From: Bacteroidota bacterium
GTDB taxonomy: Bacteria; Bacteroidota; Bacteroidia; B-17B0; Aurantibacillaceae
NCBI GenBank assembly: GCA_029237825.1
Contig: JAQZBQ010000009.1
Location: 1-64,000 of the forward strand
Reading direction: 5' to 3'
Length of the DNA stretch: 64,000 nucleotides
Below, one piece after another: positions 12,840 through 20,577 of this stretch. The position numbers and the translations under genes are program-made. How positions within the stretch are numbered: the stretch's first letter is position 1; each line of letters begins with the position of its first letter. Under the pieces are notes generated by a model. It was not told where the DNA came from, did no database searches, and saw only the letters and a program-made list of their open reading frames with translations.

Positions 12840-13841
12840 CTAAAATTTCGGGCAACTAACCAAAATTCTTTTATTGCGTTTTTTCTTTTTTGCGATTTCG
12901 TAAATCAGGGAAATTTCATGAGCCCCCATAGTGTTATTAATACCTAATTTTGAAACTGTTAAGTCATAACTATAACCAACACGTAAATTATAGTCTGTTA
13001 GATCAAAACCTACCAATATAGCAACCGATTCACGGCTTGCGTAACTTGCCGCATATTTCTTGAACGGGAGTCCGCGGTACCACAAGCCCACATTTAAAGG
13101 AAGGTGATAATAATATACACCAATATCTAACTGGTCGTAAGTTTGCTGATGCCTGTAATTAAAGGCAGGTGAAATATAACGCTTCAAATCTTTTGATTTC
13201 TGTTCTAATATGAAACGATAACCGCCGTGCAAACTAAGTGTTACAGGCAGAGGAATCTGGTCGCCTGTTAAACTGCTGTTGGGTTGAGTAAGGTGTTTAG
13301 CACTAAAACCTAACCAATACTCAGTTGAATTTAACAATGCTCCTGCCGCAAAATCCATATAATTTAACTGTTCGTATCTGCTCGCTTCAAGTGAGGAAGA
13401 TGAGCCGCTGCTGATTTGATCATTAAAACGCAATTTGTTGAAATCAATGCGTTTCATATTATACGAAAGGTTGGCTCCCATACGAATCTCTGCAAATTTT
13501 GAGACTTTGAAATGATAAGCATAATTAAGCCCGAATTGGGTATGGGTCAATCCCGCTGTTCCTGCCCTGTCTTGCATAACGTTAAAACCTAAGCCGCTGT
13601 TAATATCTGAGAGGTTATAATCATAACCTGCCATATAGGTTTGATAGGTTTTACTAATTCCAGGCCACTGATTTCTGTAATTCGCTACAAAACGATGTTC
13701 ATAAGTCAGTCCTGTAAATGCAGGATTCAAGTAGACCGGGGCAGCATAGAACTGTGTAAATTGAGGGTCCTGTGCATTCATTATTTTTGAATACAACATG
13801 CTCATCACAACAAGAGCAAAATATTTGGTAAAATGTTTGAT
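12840..13841 (-). CDS. PorP/SprF family type IX secretion outer-membrane protein
   Basis: A beta-barrel protein of the PorP/SprF family, which partners type B sorting-domain substrates in type IX secretion. Diagnostic features: QDPQFTQFYAAPVYLNPAFTG after the signal peptide, NYRNQWPGI, GLGFNVMQDRAG, and the late DYNLRVGYSYDLTVSKLG strand. In-frame ATG or GTG codons occur only at 13803-13808, inside the hydrophobic core of the signal peptide. Extending the frame gives KHFTKYFALVVMSML.. directly after an ATC codon at 13839-13841, which lies one base after the upstream stop. I infer initiation at ATC (333 residues); a sequencing error in an ATG is the alternative. It is the last gene of the PKD-PD40-PorP unit. 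Confidence 0.85.
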   Translation of the reverse strand: MKHFTKYFALVVMSMLYSKIMNAQDPQFTQFYAAPVYLNPAFTGLTYEHRFVANYRNQWPGISKTYQTYMAGYDYNLSDINSGLGFNVMQDRAGTAGLTHTQFGLNYAYHFKVSKFAEIRMGANLSYNMKRIDFNKLRFNDQISSGSSSSLEASRYEQLNYMDFAAGALLNSTEYWLGFSAKHLTQPNSSLTGDQIPLPVTLSLHGGYRFILEQKSKDLKRYISPAFNYRHQQTYDQLDIGVYYYHLPLNVGLWYRGLPFKKYAASYASRESVAILVGFDLTDYNLRVGYSYDLTVSKLGINNTMGAHEISLIYEIAKKKKRNKRILVSCPKF

Positions 13842-13842
13842 G

Positions 13843-15405
13843 TTAGTTTTTCTTAGTAAGACTTAAAATCAGTTCTTTTTCGATTAACTCGTTAACAAGC
13901 GGTTCAATATCAACAATCATAGTTTGAAAGCCCTCTTCTTCAACGATGGCCTTGTATGCCTTGAGTGGGTTCATTACCAGAATGAATTTGCCCGTACGGG
14001 AATTCGCGTTGAAAATCCCTGACACTTGTTTGCTTTCAATGTCAATCAATGTTATTTTCGCTTTCTTCGCTTCATTTCCAAAAACAACCTTGCCCTGCTT
14101 AACTTTCAGATCATTATCTCCAAAACGCGTATCAATCAGATAAATATCCGATCCGCCGTAGGTTTCTTCTTTAATGGATGAGTAATATCCGTGTGTTCCA
14201 TTGGTGTTGAGTACAAAAAAGATGTCGTTGTTTACTGTATTGATCGGAAATCCTAAATTCTCAGGCGACGAAAATGTATTGTTTTCAATATTCAGGATTG
14301 TTTTAAACACATCATAATCTCCCATTGTATTATGGCCTTTAGAACTAAAGTAAAGAGTGGTTCCGTCCGGATGAAGAAAAGGAGAATCCTCATCTCTTTC
14401 AGTATTGATAGTTGGGCCCAGGTTCATTGGTAATGACCATTTTCCGGAAGGCAGTTTTTTAATTCTGTAAATATCTTTACCTCCAAAACCTCCGATCTTA
14501 TTTGAACTAAAGAATATTACACTTGTATCCGTGCTGAAGCAAGCACTCGTTTCCACATAAGGCGTGTTAATTTCCGTACCAAATTTAACCGGCTCTGACC
14601 AACCGTTAAAATCCATTCGAGTCAGGTACAGATCTCCGGTAAGTAAATCTGCTGCAGTACGATAAATAATCATTTGGTTTCCATCAAAACTTAATGCAAC
14701 ACAGGCATCATGTGTATTTGTATTAATTGGCGGGCCAATATTTTTAGGTTCACTCCATTTTCCATCCTCCGTTCTGGTTGAAACATATACATCTTCGTAA
14801 TAATTGCCATACGCGTCCTTAAGGTTTCCTGTACTACCTTCACGGCGTGATGTGAAATACAAAGTATTCTCATCTGGTGAAATAAGCGGGACATAGTCGG
14901 CATACTCTGAATTGATGGTATTTCCCAGATTTTTTATAACGGAACGATGCGGTTGACTTACTAAATCAATTGCGTTTTTTGAGCACGCAATGTTATAGTT
15001 GACTTCATCATCTGAAACCACTTTTTTATTGGCAGGAAAGTTTTTATAATTGGTGAAACATTTAATTGCCTCATCAAAATTGGAGGTAAGATGGTATATT
15101 TTACCAAAATAGAATTGTACCTCTGGCTTTTTACTGGTCTTTAACTGTACTAAATGCGCCATCGATGAATCGGTTGGCTGGTTCAGTTTTATACGGCTTA
15201 TCACCGAATTCAAGTTGGCCATCTCGTGATTTGGATCAATTGCAAGCACTTTTTTATAAAGATTTATCGCCGTTAGGTAATCTTCCATATAAAATGAAAG
15301 ATCTGCTGCCTTTAAGTCCTTCGCGTAAAGTTTGGAATTGATTTTTGTCTGGCCCGATATGTTTGCCAGGCTCATAAATAATAGTAGTGATAAAAGTAGT
15401 TTCAT
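13843..15405 (-). CDS. TPR / PD40 beta-propeller protein, PorE-like but without OmpA domain
   Basis: A 520-residue exported protein. After a signal peptide (1-18) come TPR-like helices (about 25-150; DLSFYMEDYLTAINLYKKVL), then a PD40 propeller (about 160-410) with repeated blades of the form PLISPDENTLYFTSRREG, ALSFDGNQMIIYR and SPFLHPDGTTLYFSSKG. Residues about 430-510 look like a carboxypeptidase-regulatory-like sandwich. PorE and related proteins have TPR-PD40-CRD-OmpA; here the protein ends after the CRD, so the peptidoglycan-binding OmpA domain is missing. It starts one base after the adhesin stop (TAA-A-ATG) and ends one base before the PorP start, so the three genes are translated as a unit. 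Confidence 0.8.
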   Translation of the reverse strand: MKLLLSLLLFMSLANISGQTKINSKLYAKDLKAADLSFYMEDYLTAINLYKKVLAIDPNHEMANLNSVISRIKLNQPTDSSMAHLVQLKTSKKPEVQFYFGKIYHLTSNFDEAIKCFTNYKNFPANKKVVSDDEVNYNIACSKNAIDLVSQPHRSVIKNLGNTINSEYADYVPLISPDENTLYFTSRREGSTGNLKDAYGNYYEDVYVSTRTEDGKWSEPKNIGPPINTNTHDACVALSFDGNQMIIYRTAADLLTGDLYLTRMDFNGWSEPVKFGTEINTPYVETSACFSTDTSVIFFSSNKIGGFGGKDIYRIKKLPSGKWSLPMNLGPTINTERDEDSPFLHPDGTTLYFSSKGHNTMGDYDVFKTILNIENNTFSSPENLGFPINTVNNDIFFVLNTNGTHGYYSSIKEETYGGSDIYLIDTRFGDNDLKVKQGKVVFGNEAKKAKITLIDIESKQVSGIFNANSRTGKFILVMNPLKAYKAIVEEEGFQTMIVDIEPLVNELIEKELILSLTKKN

Positions 15406-15406
15406 T

Positions 15407-18400
15407 TTATTTCAATAAAAGTAAATCCCCTGTTTTATTAATTTTTTTACCGTCAAGTGTCGTTGCATTTATTTTCCAAACATATATATCCTGCGTGCAC
15501 AAACTACCTTTATAGTAACCATCCCAGCCAATATTGATGTCTTTTGAAACAAATAGTAATTCTCCCCATCGTGAAAAAATGTTCAGTTCATATTTATCAA
15601 TCCCTTTCAATACCGGGTGAAAAACATCGTTGTTTGTGTCGCTGGAATTAAATGTTCCACCATTCCCACTATTTGGGTTGGGGGTAAACGCATTTGGAAT
15701 GTCTATTGTACTTTCTAGCTCTGCAATAATTTTTGTAGGTAATTTAAATGTGTCAACGCAACCATGATCATTTTTTGCAATGAGGTAAACTTCGTATTCT
15801 CCGGGGTTCTGGTATGAGTAGGAAGGACTGAATTCAACAGATGAATTACCATCACCAAAATCCCAATAATAACTGATTGCCCCGGATGAGAGATTGGTTA
15901 GTTGTGTGGCCGAACCAGGAACAAAAACACGTGTTGGATTGGCCTGAAATAAAGCGATGGGAGCAGCAAACACTTTGATGTTTTTGAAGCTTGTATCGCT
16001 ACAACCATATGCATTGGTAGCAATTACCTGGACGCTGAACTGTTTTGTAGAAAGTGAATTGTTATAAAAAATATTTTTAGGATTGGCCTCCGTTGAAATG
16101 TTTCCATCACCAAATTTCCATTGGTAAACGGTTGCAGCCGGACTCGTTTTAAAAGAAACATTCAAAGGGGAACAGCCGCTATCCGGCAGCGCGATGACTG
16201 AAAATTCCGGCTTAGGATGTATAGTAATAGGAACAATTATGGTGTCTTTGCAGCCAGAAATTGATGTAGCGACAAGTTGGACAGTTCTGGTGATGTTTGC
16301 TGCTGTGGTATTTGTAAAGGCAGTAGAAACATTCGTGTTATTTGATGTGGTAGTTCCTAAATCCCATGTATAATTACTCGCTCCGATTGAAGCATTTGTA
16401 AACGTTAAAACTTTTGGCGAACAAGAAGGTGTATCTACCAAAAACGAGGCTTTTGGATTAAAAAGCACTAAAGCTGTTTTCGTAATTGAATCGGTGCAAC
16501 CATTGTTATTTTTAGCAACTAATGTACAACTGTATGATTGATTGGAAGTGTTACTTGTATTAGTGTAGGTATGGGATGGGTTAACAGTGGTGTCATAATT
16601 GCCGTCTCCAAATTTCCATGTATAAAGCCCTGCGTTCAAACTGGTGTTCGTCATGCTTGTATTCAATGGTGAGCAGGAAACGGTTTGTGTCATTACAAAA
16701 TCAGCAACTGGTGTAGCAAAAATTTCAGGAAATGCCAGTGCTGTGTCTTTGCATCCATTCGCTGTGGTTACAATGAGCTGCACTGTGTAAGTTATGTTTG
16801 ACGATGAACTGTTCGTGTAGGTGTGTACCGGATTTGGTAAAGCGGAAACAGGGCTTAAATCTCCAAAGTCCCAAAGACTTGACGTGACTCCAAGAGTATT
16901 GTTTGTGAAGGTGATTGTTTTTGACACACATTTTGGAGTATCAATACTAAATAGGGCCTGCGGTTTAAAATATGCTAGAACAGGAACCGAAACTGAATCT
17001 TTACATCCATTGTTGTTTAATGCAACTAAGGTACAGGTAAATGTTTGGTGTGTGGTGTTACTCGCGTTCGTGTAGGTATGAATTGGGGATCCTAACAAAG
17101 AGGTATTCCCGTCTCCAAATTTCCATATTTGACTGTGTGCAAAGGCAGAAGTAGTACTCATTGAGACCTGAAGCGGGGAACACCCAGCAGTAGGAGTTAC
17201 CACGCCGTTAGCCACTGGTTTAGCGAAAATAGTTGCCACTGCCTCGGCTGTATCCTTACATCCATTGCTAGTTGTGGAAATCAATTGAACAGAATAGGTA
17301 ACATTGTTAATGCTGTTATTGGTATAGGTGTGAGAAGGGTTCATTGATGCGGAATTAGCACTTCCATCTCCAAAATTCCAATTGCTGTTAGCGGATCCAA
17401 TAGTTGTGTTTGTAAACGTTATCGTTTTTGACATGCACCCAGGGGTATCCATCGTAAAACCTGTTTGAGGTTTGTAATAAACAAGAACTGTTTTATGAAC
17501 GGAATCTCTGCAATTATTAATTGAAATTGCCACTAACGAACATGTAAATGTTTGATCACTTGTTGAGCTTGTATTGGTATATATATGGCTGGTGTTAGCT
17601 AATGTGGACGTGTTCGTATCTCCGAATTTCCATTCATAGGTATTTCCTGAAGTACTGGCATTGGTAAACGTTGTAGTTAAAGGTGAACATCCTGCAGTGG
17701 GTGTATGAACAAACGAAGCCTGAGGCTTGGCAAAGACAACAGGGTAACCGTAGGTTGTGTCTCGGCAGGAAAAAGCATTTGATGCGATTAACTGTACTGT
17801 GTATGTTTTATTCACAGACAATGAATTTGTAAAAACATGTGACGGATTTGGTGTGAAATCTTTAGGACTTCCATCTCCAAAATCCCATTCATAAGCAACA
17901 GCGCCTAATACCGGTGGAAAATTAATATTTAAGGGCGAACACCCGCTGTTTGGCACCATGCTGAAATTGAATGTTGGCCGGGGATAGCTGGTAACCGTTA
18001 GAGACGTGCTGTCTTTACAGCCATTATTGCTGATTGCTGTTAATTGAACCGTATAGGTTTGAATGATTAACGTTGAATTTATGTAGGTATGAGATAGGAC
18101 GGAAGAAAGAGAATTACTAAACGATGCATCTCCAAAAGACCATTGATAGGAACCAGCTCCTGAAGAAGTGTTGGTAAAAGTGGCTGCAATAGGCGAACAC
18201 CCGGCGGGAGCGTTTACTGCAAACGATGCTGTTGGTTTTGGAAAAACAGTTACGGTAACAGTATGGGAATCTGAGCATCCTAAAGCGGTAAATGCTGTTA
18301 AAGTGACGGTGTAAATTTTGTTTAAGGAGGTTGAGTTTCCAAAAGATTCGGTTGGCGAACTGCTGATGGAACTGTTCCCATTATTGAAATCCCAGGAATA

Positions 18401-20191
18401 AGATGAGGCGTTTTGTGAAGTATTTACAAAGTCAACAGTAAGGGTAGGGCAACCACTCACCGGTGAAATGGTAAAATCAGCTGTGGGTTTTACGTTTATG
18501 GTAACTGGTTGCAAAACTGTATCGCTACAATGTGCTGTTTTCACAATGAGTTGTGTTGTATAAGTGCTTTGAACAGAAAACGTGTGCGACGGATTTTGCA
18601 CAGTAGTTGTTGAAGTGGGCGAGGCGTCACCAAAATTCCATTGCCAGTTTATTATTGGGTCACCGGCTAACGACGTTGAGTTATCAACGAATGTTGCCGG
18701 AGAACCTTCGCATGCATTTGAAGCTGTGAACGCAGCTGTTGGAACCTGGTATACTGTAATGGTAGAAGTAAAAGTATGGGAACAACTATTGGCTGCTGAA
18801 ACTGTAAGGGAAGCAGAGTAAACGCCAACACCGTTATAATCTTGCGAGGGCGGATTTTGACCAGTGAAGGTATTGCCGTTTCCAAAATTCCAGTTCCATA
18901 AAGTTGCGTTAGTTGATAGGTCGCTAAAAACAACGCCAAAAATGGAATTACAGCCAGTGTTTGCGTTTAAAGAAAAACTAGCAGTTGGTTTTGGTAAAAT
19001 TATAATAACCGTTTTGGCTGTATCTGTACAGGATGGGCCTCCTCCGCCTATTAATGCAACCACTGAAATGGTATAAGTGCCCGGCGTATTATATGTGAAA
19101 GACTGTACTCCAAATGGCTTAGTCACAAATCCACCTCCGGTTCCGAAATTCCATTTATAAGAATATCCGGTAGCGCTGGAATTTGTAAAGGTAACGCTTG
19201 CGCCCTGGCAAAAGGGGCCGCTGGGTGCAGTAATTCCGGCAACAGGTGGGTTTAAAATAGTGACCGATTGAACCTGGACATCAACACCGCAAAGGTTACT
19301 ATCTTGTAACTGAACCGTATATGTACCAATAGACGGGAAGGTTACTGTAAGCGGCGAAGTTGGTGGCCATGGTCTCCATCCGATGATGGAATCATGGCCG
19401 AGGCCCCAATAATTGCCAAGGTTCCATTTTTCCTGCCTTTGAAAAGTGTTTCCCTGAGGAACGCAATTGCGGTTAGTTGTATTTGAGAAAGTAAAGACAT
19501 TATCCGGCCAGCATTTTATAAACGCGGAAGGTGTAATCGCTGCGTCATCTTTATCATAAATCTGGATTGGGTTAAAGTTTGCAATGGTAGGTATTGGTGT
19601 ACAATAATTTTTTGCATTTAGTGTAACAGCGGTTTGGCAATTTACGGTCCCAGGATTGTAGGTGTGTGAAATTGTTTGCCCTGAATTACTATAGTTATAA
19701 GTTTCTTGTGGTGAGCCATCACCAAAATTCCAGGTAAACCATGTGGTTTCAGAAACATCCGTGCTTGAGTTGGTGAACTGAAGCACTTTTGGCGCGCATG
19801 CCGTTGTAACTCCACCAATCGGTATTTGAATGGATGCATTCACCGGCTTTTCCATAACGGTAATTCCAGTAAGTGTACAGCCAAGTGAAGGAATGCTTAG
19901 TGTTACAACAAATGTATCCGGCGAAGCAGAATTATAAGAATGGTTAATGATTGCGTTGGCCGTGTAAAAGGAACCAGAAGTTACAGCAGAACCATCACCC
20001 CAATCTAGGGTATATGCCCCCCAGCCTGAATTGGAAGAGAAATTTACATTATAAGTTCCACTTCCCTGGCAATCAATAAAGTAAGGCCTAGAGGCTAAAT
20101 TTCCTAAATAGTCATATATCTGTGGACATTGAGCAGACACGAGTTTTGACATCAAAACTATAGTGAATATGTAAAGTATGCGTTTGAGCAT
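15407..20191 (-). CDS. Giant PKD-repeat surface adhesin with type B (CHU_C) sorting domain
   Basis: A 1594-residue secreted protein. Residues 1-20 are a signal peptide (cleaved at VSA-QCPQ). About 17 PKD-like units follow, each marked by a WxFGDG-type core (for example WNFGDGSP, WKFGDGNT, WDFGDLSP) and usually a downstream SHTYTN strand, with a CxDT spacing between units. Residues about 1500-1594 form the gliding-motility-associated C-terminal domain: NAFTPNPNSGN, YELNIFSRWGELLF, GWDGYYKG and a basic KINKTGDLLLLK end. Type B proteins are exported by type IX secretion and anchored with the help of PorP/SprF, which is encoded two genes downstream. A role in adhesion or gliding is inferred. The ATG lies only 18 bases after the P1 stem of rnpB on the same strand. 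Confidence 0.9.
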   Translation of the reverse strand: MLKRILYIFTIVLMSKLVSAQCPQIYDYLGNLASRPYFIDCQGSGTYNVNFSSNSGWGAYTLDWGDGSAVTSGSFYTANAIINHSYNSASPDTFVVTLSIPSLGCTLTGITVMEKPVNASIQIPIGGVTTACAPKVLQFTNSSTDVSETTWFTWNFGDGSPQETYNYSNSGQTISHTYNPGTVNCQTAVTLNAKNYCTPIPTIANFNPIQIYDKDDAAITPSAFIKCWPDNVFTFSNTTNRNCVPQGNTFQRQEKWNLGNYWGLGHDSIIGWRPWPPTSPLTVTFPSIGTYTVQLQDSNLCGVDVQVQSVTILNPPVAGITAPSGPFCQGASVTFTNSSATGYSYKWNFGTGGGFVTKPFGVQSFTYNTPGTYTISVVALIGGGGPSCTDTAKTVIIILPKPTASFSLNANTGCNSIFGVVFSDLSTNATLWNWNFGNGNTFTGQNPPSQDYNGVGVYSASLTVSAANSCSHTFTSTITVYQVPTAAFTASNACEGSPATFVDNSTSLAGDPIINWQWNFGDASPTSTTTVQNPSHTFSVQSTYTTQLIVKTAHCSDTVLQPVTINVKPTADFTISPVSGCPTLTVDFVNTSQNASSYSWDFNNGNSSISSSPTESFGNSTSLNKIYTVTLTAFTALGCSDSHTVTVTVFPKPTASFAVNAPAGCSPIAATFTNTSSGAGSYQWSFGDASFSNSLSSVLSHTYINSTLIIQTYTVQLTAISNNGCKDSTSLTVTSYPRPTFNFSMVPNSGCSPLNINFPPVLGAVAYEWDFGDGSPKDFTPNPSHVFTNSLSVNKTYTVQLIASNAFSCRDTTYGYPVVFAKPQASFVHTPTAGCSPLTTTFTNASTSGNTYEWKFGDTNTSTLANTSHIYTNTSSTSDQTFTCSLVAISINNCRDSVHKTVLVYYKPQTGFTMDTPGCMSKTITFTNTTIGSANSNWNFGDGSANSASMNPSHTYTNNSINNVTYSVQLISTTSNGCKDTAEAVATIFAKPVANGVVTPTAGCSPLQVSMSTTSAFAHSQIWKFGDGNTSLLGSPIHTYTNASNTTHQTFTCTLVALNNNGCKDSVSVPVLAYFKPQALFSIDTPKCVSKTITFTNNTLGVTSSLWDFGDLSPVSALPNPVHTYTNSSSSNITYTVQLIVTTANGCKDTALAFPEIFATPVADFVMTQTVSCSPLNTSMTNTSLNAGLYTWKFGDGNYDTTVNPSHTYTNTSNTSNQSYSCTLVAKNNNGCTDSITKTALVLFNPKASFLVDTPSCSPKVLTFTNASIGASNYTWDLGTTTSNNTNVSTAFTNTTAANITRTVQLVATSISGCKDTIIVPITIHPKPEFSVIALPDSGCSPLNVSFKTSPAATVYQWKFGDGNISTEANPKNIFYNNSLSTKQFSVQVIATNAYGCSDTSFKNIKVFAAPIALFQANPTRVFVPGSATQLTNLSSGAISYYWDFGDGNSSVEFSPSYSYQNPGEYEVYLIAKNDHGCVDTFKLPTKIIAELESTIDIPNAFTPNPNSGNGGTFNSSDTNNDVFHPVLKGIDKYELNIFSRWGELLFVSKDINIGWDGYYKGSLCTQDIYVWKINATTLDGKKINKTGDLLLLK

Positions 20192-20207
20192 GAGTCCTAT
20201 TAAAAAA

Positions 20208-20577
20208 TAAAAACAGGTTCTATAAGCCGGGTTCTGTCCCGTTAACCAAGGTCAACGGTTTTCATCATTTATCTATGCAGCCTACCCTCCCTGATAAACC
20301 GAAGTTTTGTGACGGGCCGCCACAAGATCAGGGTTTACATGGCCTTACAACACTTGAGGTTTGTCCTGTACCAATGTTACCATTTGCACATGTGAGCTCT
20401 TACCTCACATTTTCACTATGACCGCTTATGCAAGATAAACGGCTACCTTGTTTTCTGTGACACTATCTGTTATATTTTCATTCCTGAAAATATACCCACC
20501 CTTTCAGATGGCAAATTGCCCTGTGTTGCCCGGACTTTCCTCCCTTAAAATAAAGAGCGATGAAACAAACCTGTTTT
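20208..20577 (-). ncRNA. rnpB: RNase P RNA (class A)
   Basis: On the minus strand the RNA begins with the P1 half AAAACAGGTT (20577-20568), soon followed by GGGAGGAAAGTCCGGGC, the universal 5' core of RNase P RNA. The 3' core GACAGAACCCGGCTTATAG (near 20240-20220) pairs into P4, and P1 closes with AACCTGTTTT (20219-20210). The length of about 370 bases fits the family. The ribozyme matures tRNA 5' ends. P1 is followed by TATTTTTT, which may act as terminator. A minus-strand adhesin gene begins 18 bases further on. Confidence 0.95.

Follow-up and report, generated by a model that had tools for sequence, protein, structure and literature searches.

A conserved three-gene type B adhesin unit of Bacteroidota with a PorE-like protein that lacks an OmpA domain

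Results

The window analyzed in this study, a 64,000-nucleotide stretch of contig JAQZBQ010000009.1 (assembly GCA_029237825.1) from a Bacteroidota bacterium of the Aurantibacillaceae, carries on its minus strand a unit of three genes (positions 12840–20191) for a 1594-aa PKD adhesin, a 520-aa TPR/PD40/CRD protein and a PorP/SprF barrel, in that order. These genes were found where the initial annotation had placed them. The one-base junctions claimed there were confirmed for the adhesin and PD40 genes (TAA-A-ATG) and hold for the PD40 and PorP genes only if the latter is read from an ATC codon at 13841 (TAA-C-ATC); the first ordinary PorP start codon, GTG at 13808, leaves 34 bases after the PD40 stop and no usable signal peptide.

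The adhesin (15407–20191, minus strand) has a Sec signal peptide, as judged by eye, and 14 PKD_4 stretches (375 bits). The match to a type B sorting domain at its C-terminus (CHU_C/Bac_Flav_CTERM; 15443–15706, minus strand) was weak, with scores under the curated cut-offs of both CHU_C (PF13585; 25.7 bits against 27) and TIGR04131 (26.2 bits against 35). Scores over these cut-offs were noted for orthologous adhesins of L075 (CHU_C, 28.1), L083 (CHU_C, 37.2 and TIGR04131, 41) and L085 (CHU_C). The gene for class A RNase P RNA (rnpB; 20207–20576, minus strand; RF00010, 194 bits) ends 15 bp before the start codon of the adhesin. The presence of rnpB directly upstream of the adhesin gene and on the same strand was noted at 12 loci (i.e., the window and L067, L068, L069, L071, L073, L075, L076, L078, L079, L081 and L231), and the distance from the end of the rnpB model match to the first plausible adhesin start codon was 10–33 bp in 11 of these. 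At L069, a TTG located 1 bp after the match was taken as the start by the script, and ATG codons follow shortly after. No rnpB was found upstream of the adhesin operon in L082, L083 or L085. A promoter of its own would hardly fit into so short a gap, and transcription of the operon may therefore start at the rnpB promoter or inside rnpB.

The PD40 protein (13843–15405, minus strand) was characterized from Pfam and NCBIfam matches, an AlphaFold2 model (pLDDT 87.8) and an alignment of 16 orthologues. It comprises TPR helices (residues 28–149; 14959–15324; TPR_1 and TPR_2 matches and the model), a PD40/TolB-like propeller (residues approximately 151–430; 14116–14955) and a CRD-like beta domain (residues 434–516; 13858–14106), identified from the model and from a sub-threshold PF13620 match in the relative L240, with which the protein ends; all are on the minus strand. 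The description of this protein as PorE-like and without OmpA was confirmed. The TPR and PD40 portions were matched by Pfam whereas no OmpA domain (PF00691) was found, coverage by the PorE model (T9SS_PorE, NF052230; 188.4 bits, cut-off 600) ended at profile position 414 of 648, and the best NCBIfam match, the model of the CHU_0125 family OmpA-like outer membrane integrity protein (NF053607; 198 bits, cut-off 620), extended over positions 23–505 of 639, leaving out the C-terminal part of the model. The AlphaFold2 structure likewise shows helices followed by a propeller and then a small beta domain, at which the chain ends. The protein has the TPR, propeller and CRD core of PorE, scores under the curated PorE cut-off and is without the OmpA domain and, by a simple pattern, the lipoprotein signal. 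The top Foldseek matches of the model were TolB and the TolB/Pal complex, and alignment with VIA-align gave Z scores of approximately 20 to GH43-like propellers, the rows being mostly glycosidase-type propellers that have only the fold in common with it.

Read from ATC 13841, the PorP gene (12840–13841, minus strand) encodes a PorP/SprF-family outer-membrane carrier of 333 aa, which passed the curated cut-offs of PF11751 (231 bits against 22.3) and TIGR03519 (254.8 bits against 90.6). The predicted structure is a beta-barrel with a low-confidence C-terminal tail. The best PDB match was 8gl6_F and 6h3i_F was also matched, chains which we take to be PorV in structures of the T9SS translocon; PDB sequence searches with PorP returned no convincing relative. 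From the alignment and the model, the tail (residues 317–333; 12843–12893, minus strand) follows the last predicted strand and ends in KRILVSCPKF. Its cysteine, Cys330 (codon 12852–12854, minus strand), lies four residues from the C-terminus and was invariant in 28 aligned carriers, for which mean column identity was 53%.

The proposed ATC start codon of PorP (13839–13841, minus strand) was examined by sequence alignment with infC of the clade as positive control. Among 11 same-genus genomes (the window and L067–L073, L076, L078 and L079), the start site was ATT in 9, ATC in 1 (the window) and ATA in 1, and in none of these did the PorP frame offer an ATG, GTG or TTG from which a normal signal peptide could be read. 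L078 and L079, which were offset by nine residues in the start-site output, their ORFs having been called from a later ATG, contained no ordinary start codon at all ahead of mature PorP. The start was ATG in L074 and L077 of the same genus, and no ATT, ATC or ATA start was found in other clades among 183 carriers, L229 being a possible ATA case. The infC gene of Escherichia coli is known for its AUU start, and in most of the genomes of the present clade that were read, the first codon of infC was ATT or ATC, which suggests that such starts do work in these bacteria. Two other explanations were considered and rejected. A programmed frameshift is argued against by the frame of PorP relative to the PD40 stop, which, as judged by eye, differed between orthologues. 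Loss of IF3 as the cause of AUU starts did not agree with the presence of infC in all 18 other genomes searched; only the window assembly was without it. Since infC of G016 was split over two contig ends, its absence from the window assembly is likely an assembly gap. In Streptomyces, sigR has a GTC start that is repressed by IF3 (PMC5472188). Synthesis of the PorP carrier may be IF3-dependent or coupled.

To define the distribution of the OmpA-less form, modules were counted as a PD40 protein of less than 590 aa without OmpA and with PorP directly downstream, in fetched regions and in a scan of named genomes. There were 37 distinct modules in Bacteroidota genomes, and a protein search of 40 relatives revealed OmpA-less orthologues of approximately 520 aa, or fragments of these, in most same-genus genomes as well as in other genera and families. 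Thus, the absence of OmpA is no local oddity but the common version of this subfamily, an outcome that the initial annotation had named as one that would refute its reading. An adhesin CTD gene was directly upstream of the module in 33 of 37 cases, as would be expected if, as first proposed, a dedicated adhesin works with a PD40 partner and a PorP/SprF carrier of its own; this reading was strengthened by the gene order, which was kept in the 37 modules, and by published precedents (PMC9143113, PMC12618676). From the neighborhood in these 33 modules, the window PorP would bind and export a cognate type B adhesin. Genes flanking the modules were common only within small groups, which indicates that the unit consists of three genes.

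The same survey bears on the earlier suggestion that the wall-anchoring part is supplied in trans. In such a model, a distinct OmpA-like lipoprotein would be bound by the PD40 propeller, by analogy with the binding of Pal by TolB. The Foldseek matches to TolB and TolB/Pal and the occurrence of several shorter OmpA-domain ORFs (261–438 aa) in the window genome are in keeping with such an arrangement; however, matches of this kind are common to many unrelated propellers, all 26 OmpA matches of the genome are on contigs other than that of the window, a further OmpA gene was present in the flanks of 1 of 37 module loci, and no fourth gene recurred widely beside the modules. Anchoring in trans thus appears improbable.

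A conserved tail cysteine was present in 36 of 37 module PorP copies from several families, mostly as C[PA]KF or a close variant, the exception being L229, in which it was lost. Of PorP proteins encoded beside OmpA-containing PD40 proteins, 27 of 35 had no cysteine within the last 12 residues and typically ended in [ST]PR[YF][FL]. The remaining 8 had a tail cysteine, which is therefore compatible with wall anchoring; one of them is L237, a locus inside the window clade with the same operon and a PD40 protein that carries a full OmpA domain (690 aa, 67.3 bits). SprB repeats, considered as a marker of gliding adhesins, did not separate the two kinds of unit (5 of 32 OmpA-less modules with the tail cysteine versus 5 of 25 OmpA-containing units without it).

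Trees were constructed without P. gingivalis PorE and F. johnsoniae SprF. The PorP collection comprised 161 distinct sequences, mostly from nine genomes, or 183 with the loci of named genomes. In the PorP tree, carriers from OmpA-less modules formed one clade (44 rows, support 86), which was sister (support 81) to a clade that holds gldJ-adjacent PorP with the tail SCPSF. The association between a cysteine tail and an OmpA-less PD40 partner was rejected as independent evidence because the partner state changed only approximately three times on this tree and the 2–3 independent pairs gave no significance; the association is essentially one inherited event and proves little. The module PD40 proteins formed a clade apart from the PorP-linked, OmpA-containing PD40 proteins of the same genomes (starred support values of 98 and 100). 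The FastTree topology hinted that PD40 proteins were recruited to PorP operons twice, in separate events; this was not accepted since an AU test did not reject a single clade of all PorP-linked PD40 proteins (p 0.78).

The latter result and the full OmpA domain of L237, which makes an OmpA-containing ancestor with early loss of the domain plausible, would both agree with a PorE-type unit in which the PD40 protein, having lost OmpA, no longer anchors or does anything. The short form is, however, conserved (65–87% identity within the genus and 43–54% in more distant relatives) in an operon that has stayed intact, which is not the pattern of decay, and we consider a functionless remnant very improbable.

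Discussion

The unit has points in common with three described systems. Like the PorE-PorP-PG1035 complex of Porphyromonas gingivalis, it combines a type B CTD protein, a PorP barrel and a periplasmic TPR/propeller protein, but P. gingivalis PorE is a lipoprotein with a peptidoglycan-binding OmpA-type C-terminal domain (PMC9143113) whereas the window PD40 protein has neither feature, and no lipobox was found on the PD40 protein of any of the 37 modules (simple pattern, first 34 residues). The Fjoh_3952-Fjoh_3951-Fjoh_3950 operon of Flavobacterium johnsoniae similarly contains genes for a type B adhesin, a cognate PorP/SprF shuttle and a PorE-like protein (PMC12618676); however, the order there is adhesin, shuttle and PorE homologue, with static wall anchoring proposed, as opposed to adhesin, PD40 and PorP without OmpA in the window. 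SprB-SprF corresponds in its type B adhesin and in a PorP/SprF carrier with C-tail cysteine, and differs in that SprF has Cys-X-Cys and no PorE-like neighbor (PMC12635249) while the window carrier has a single cysteine (VSCPKF) and a PD40 partner. To judge from the open PubMed Central papers, the unit is a conserved form of the established type B adhesin operon that has apparently not been described.

Published type B adhesins have been divided into mobile ones, which have a carrier only, and static ones, which have a carrier and a wall-binding PorE homologue; in F. johnsoniae, operons of mobile adhesins are without a PorE-like gene and operons with such a gene were assigned to static adhesins (PMC12618676). 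The conserved module described here fits neither class in that it pairs a PorE-like partner without wall anchor with a carrier tail that resembles a track hook.

By analogy with the published systems, in which type B proteins are held by PorP-like carriers (PMC9143113), the adhesin would be secreted through the T9SS and passed to the PorP/SprF barrel of its own unit, and would stay on the cell surface bound to this carrier. The PD40 protein would be located in the periplasm and dock on the carrier through its TPR/propeller part; because lipid anchor and OmpA domain are both missing, it would provide no direct link between the complex and either membrane or wall. The likely attachment point would then be the C-tail cysteine of the carrier, which might form a disulfide with a conserved cysteine of GldK as do the C-tail cysteines of F. 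johnsoniae SprF and PorG, which are bonded to GldK Cys343 of the moving track (PMC12635249). A single tail cysteine is found in P. gingivalis PorG (PMC12635249). The window genome contains gldJ (461 bits, cut-off 458) and gldK (559 bits, cut-off 350), and its GldK keeps both conserved non-lipobox cysteines. Given this precedent and these genes, a link to the track is a reasoned hypothesis, and the likeness of the tail cysteine to those of SprF and PorG, together with the sister relationship between the module PorP clade and the gldJ-adjacent clade, leads us to favor tentatively, at somewhat below even probability, an adhesin linked to the track through GldK over one anchored to the wall. Both the attachment to the track and the mobility of the adhesin are points that we infer. 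Two differences count against them, i.e., the single cysteine of the carrier, compared with the Cys-X-Cys of SprF, in which both cysteines matter for gliding (PMC12635249), and the PD40 partner, compared with mobile F. johnsoniae adhesins, which have no PorE-like gene.

The single cysteine would agree with a static unit. In this, the adhesin is held in the outer membrane by the PorP barrel without further help, the PD40 protein assists as a chaperone or in assembly, and the role of the tail cysteine is other than binding of GldK, e.g., with another periplasmic partner. Such a unit would also agree with the finding that SprB was surface-exposed even after substitution of the SprF tail cysteines (PMC12635249), so that the carrier function is independent of them, and with the assignment of PorE-like operons to static adhesins. 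On the other hand, retention of the cysteine in nearly all module tails, in several families, points to a bond that has been conserved, and a disulfide between PorP and the PD40 protein is argued against by PD40 C235, which was present in 12 of 18 proteins only and was not kept alongside the PorP tail cysteine. A static, carrier-held adhesin is possible and rather unlikely. Returning to the track-linked adhesin, this might be extended to a third class of type B adhesin unit, in which the single C-tail cysteine hooks the carrier to the gliding track, the periplasmic propeller protein, itself free of the wall, serves as an adaptor and the conserved AUU-type start, of the kind that IF3 discriminates against, sets a special level of carrier. 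We regard this larger proposal as distinctly doubtful.

Several other PorP and PD40 variants were noted during the survey. A PorP/SprF gene with the tail SCPSF adjoins gldJ in L052 (14433–15386, plus strand), L117, L129, L137, L162, L176, L195 and L211; in the surveyed genomes, such PorP genes immediately precede gldJ and have no adhesin CTD gene next to them on the same strand. Long PorP proteins (443–636 aa) with an extra C-terminal part occurred in related groups of the PorP tree (L055, 9595–11028, plus strand; L114, L139, L140, L144, L158, L160, L200, L201 and L215), and this part of the L055 protein matched the CRD-like end of the PD40 family. PD40 proteins of 653–678 aa were encoded beside PorP with the tail CP[IV]YM in L061 (10276–12273, plus strand), L122, L181, L203 and L219; for that of L061, OmpA was matched at only 18.9 bits, which is weak and under the threshold and points to a degenerate form of this domain. 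Finally, a PorP-linked PD40 protein of L169 (6593–8860, plus strand) contained carboxypeptidase-regulatory domains and, below the cut-off of 21, a marginal match to SPOR (15.0 bits), which is possibly another way to bind peptidoglycan.
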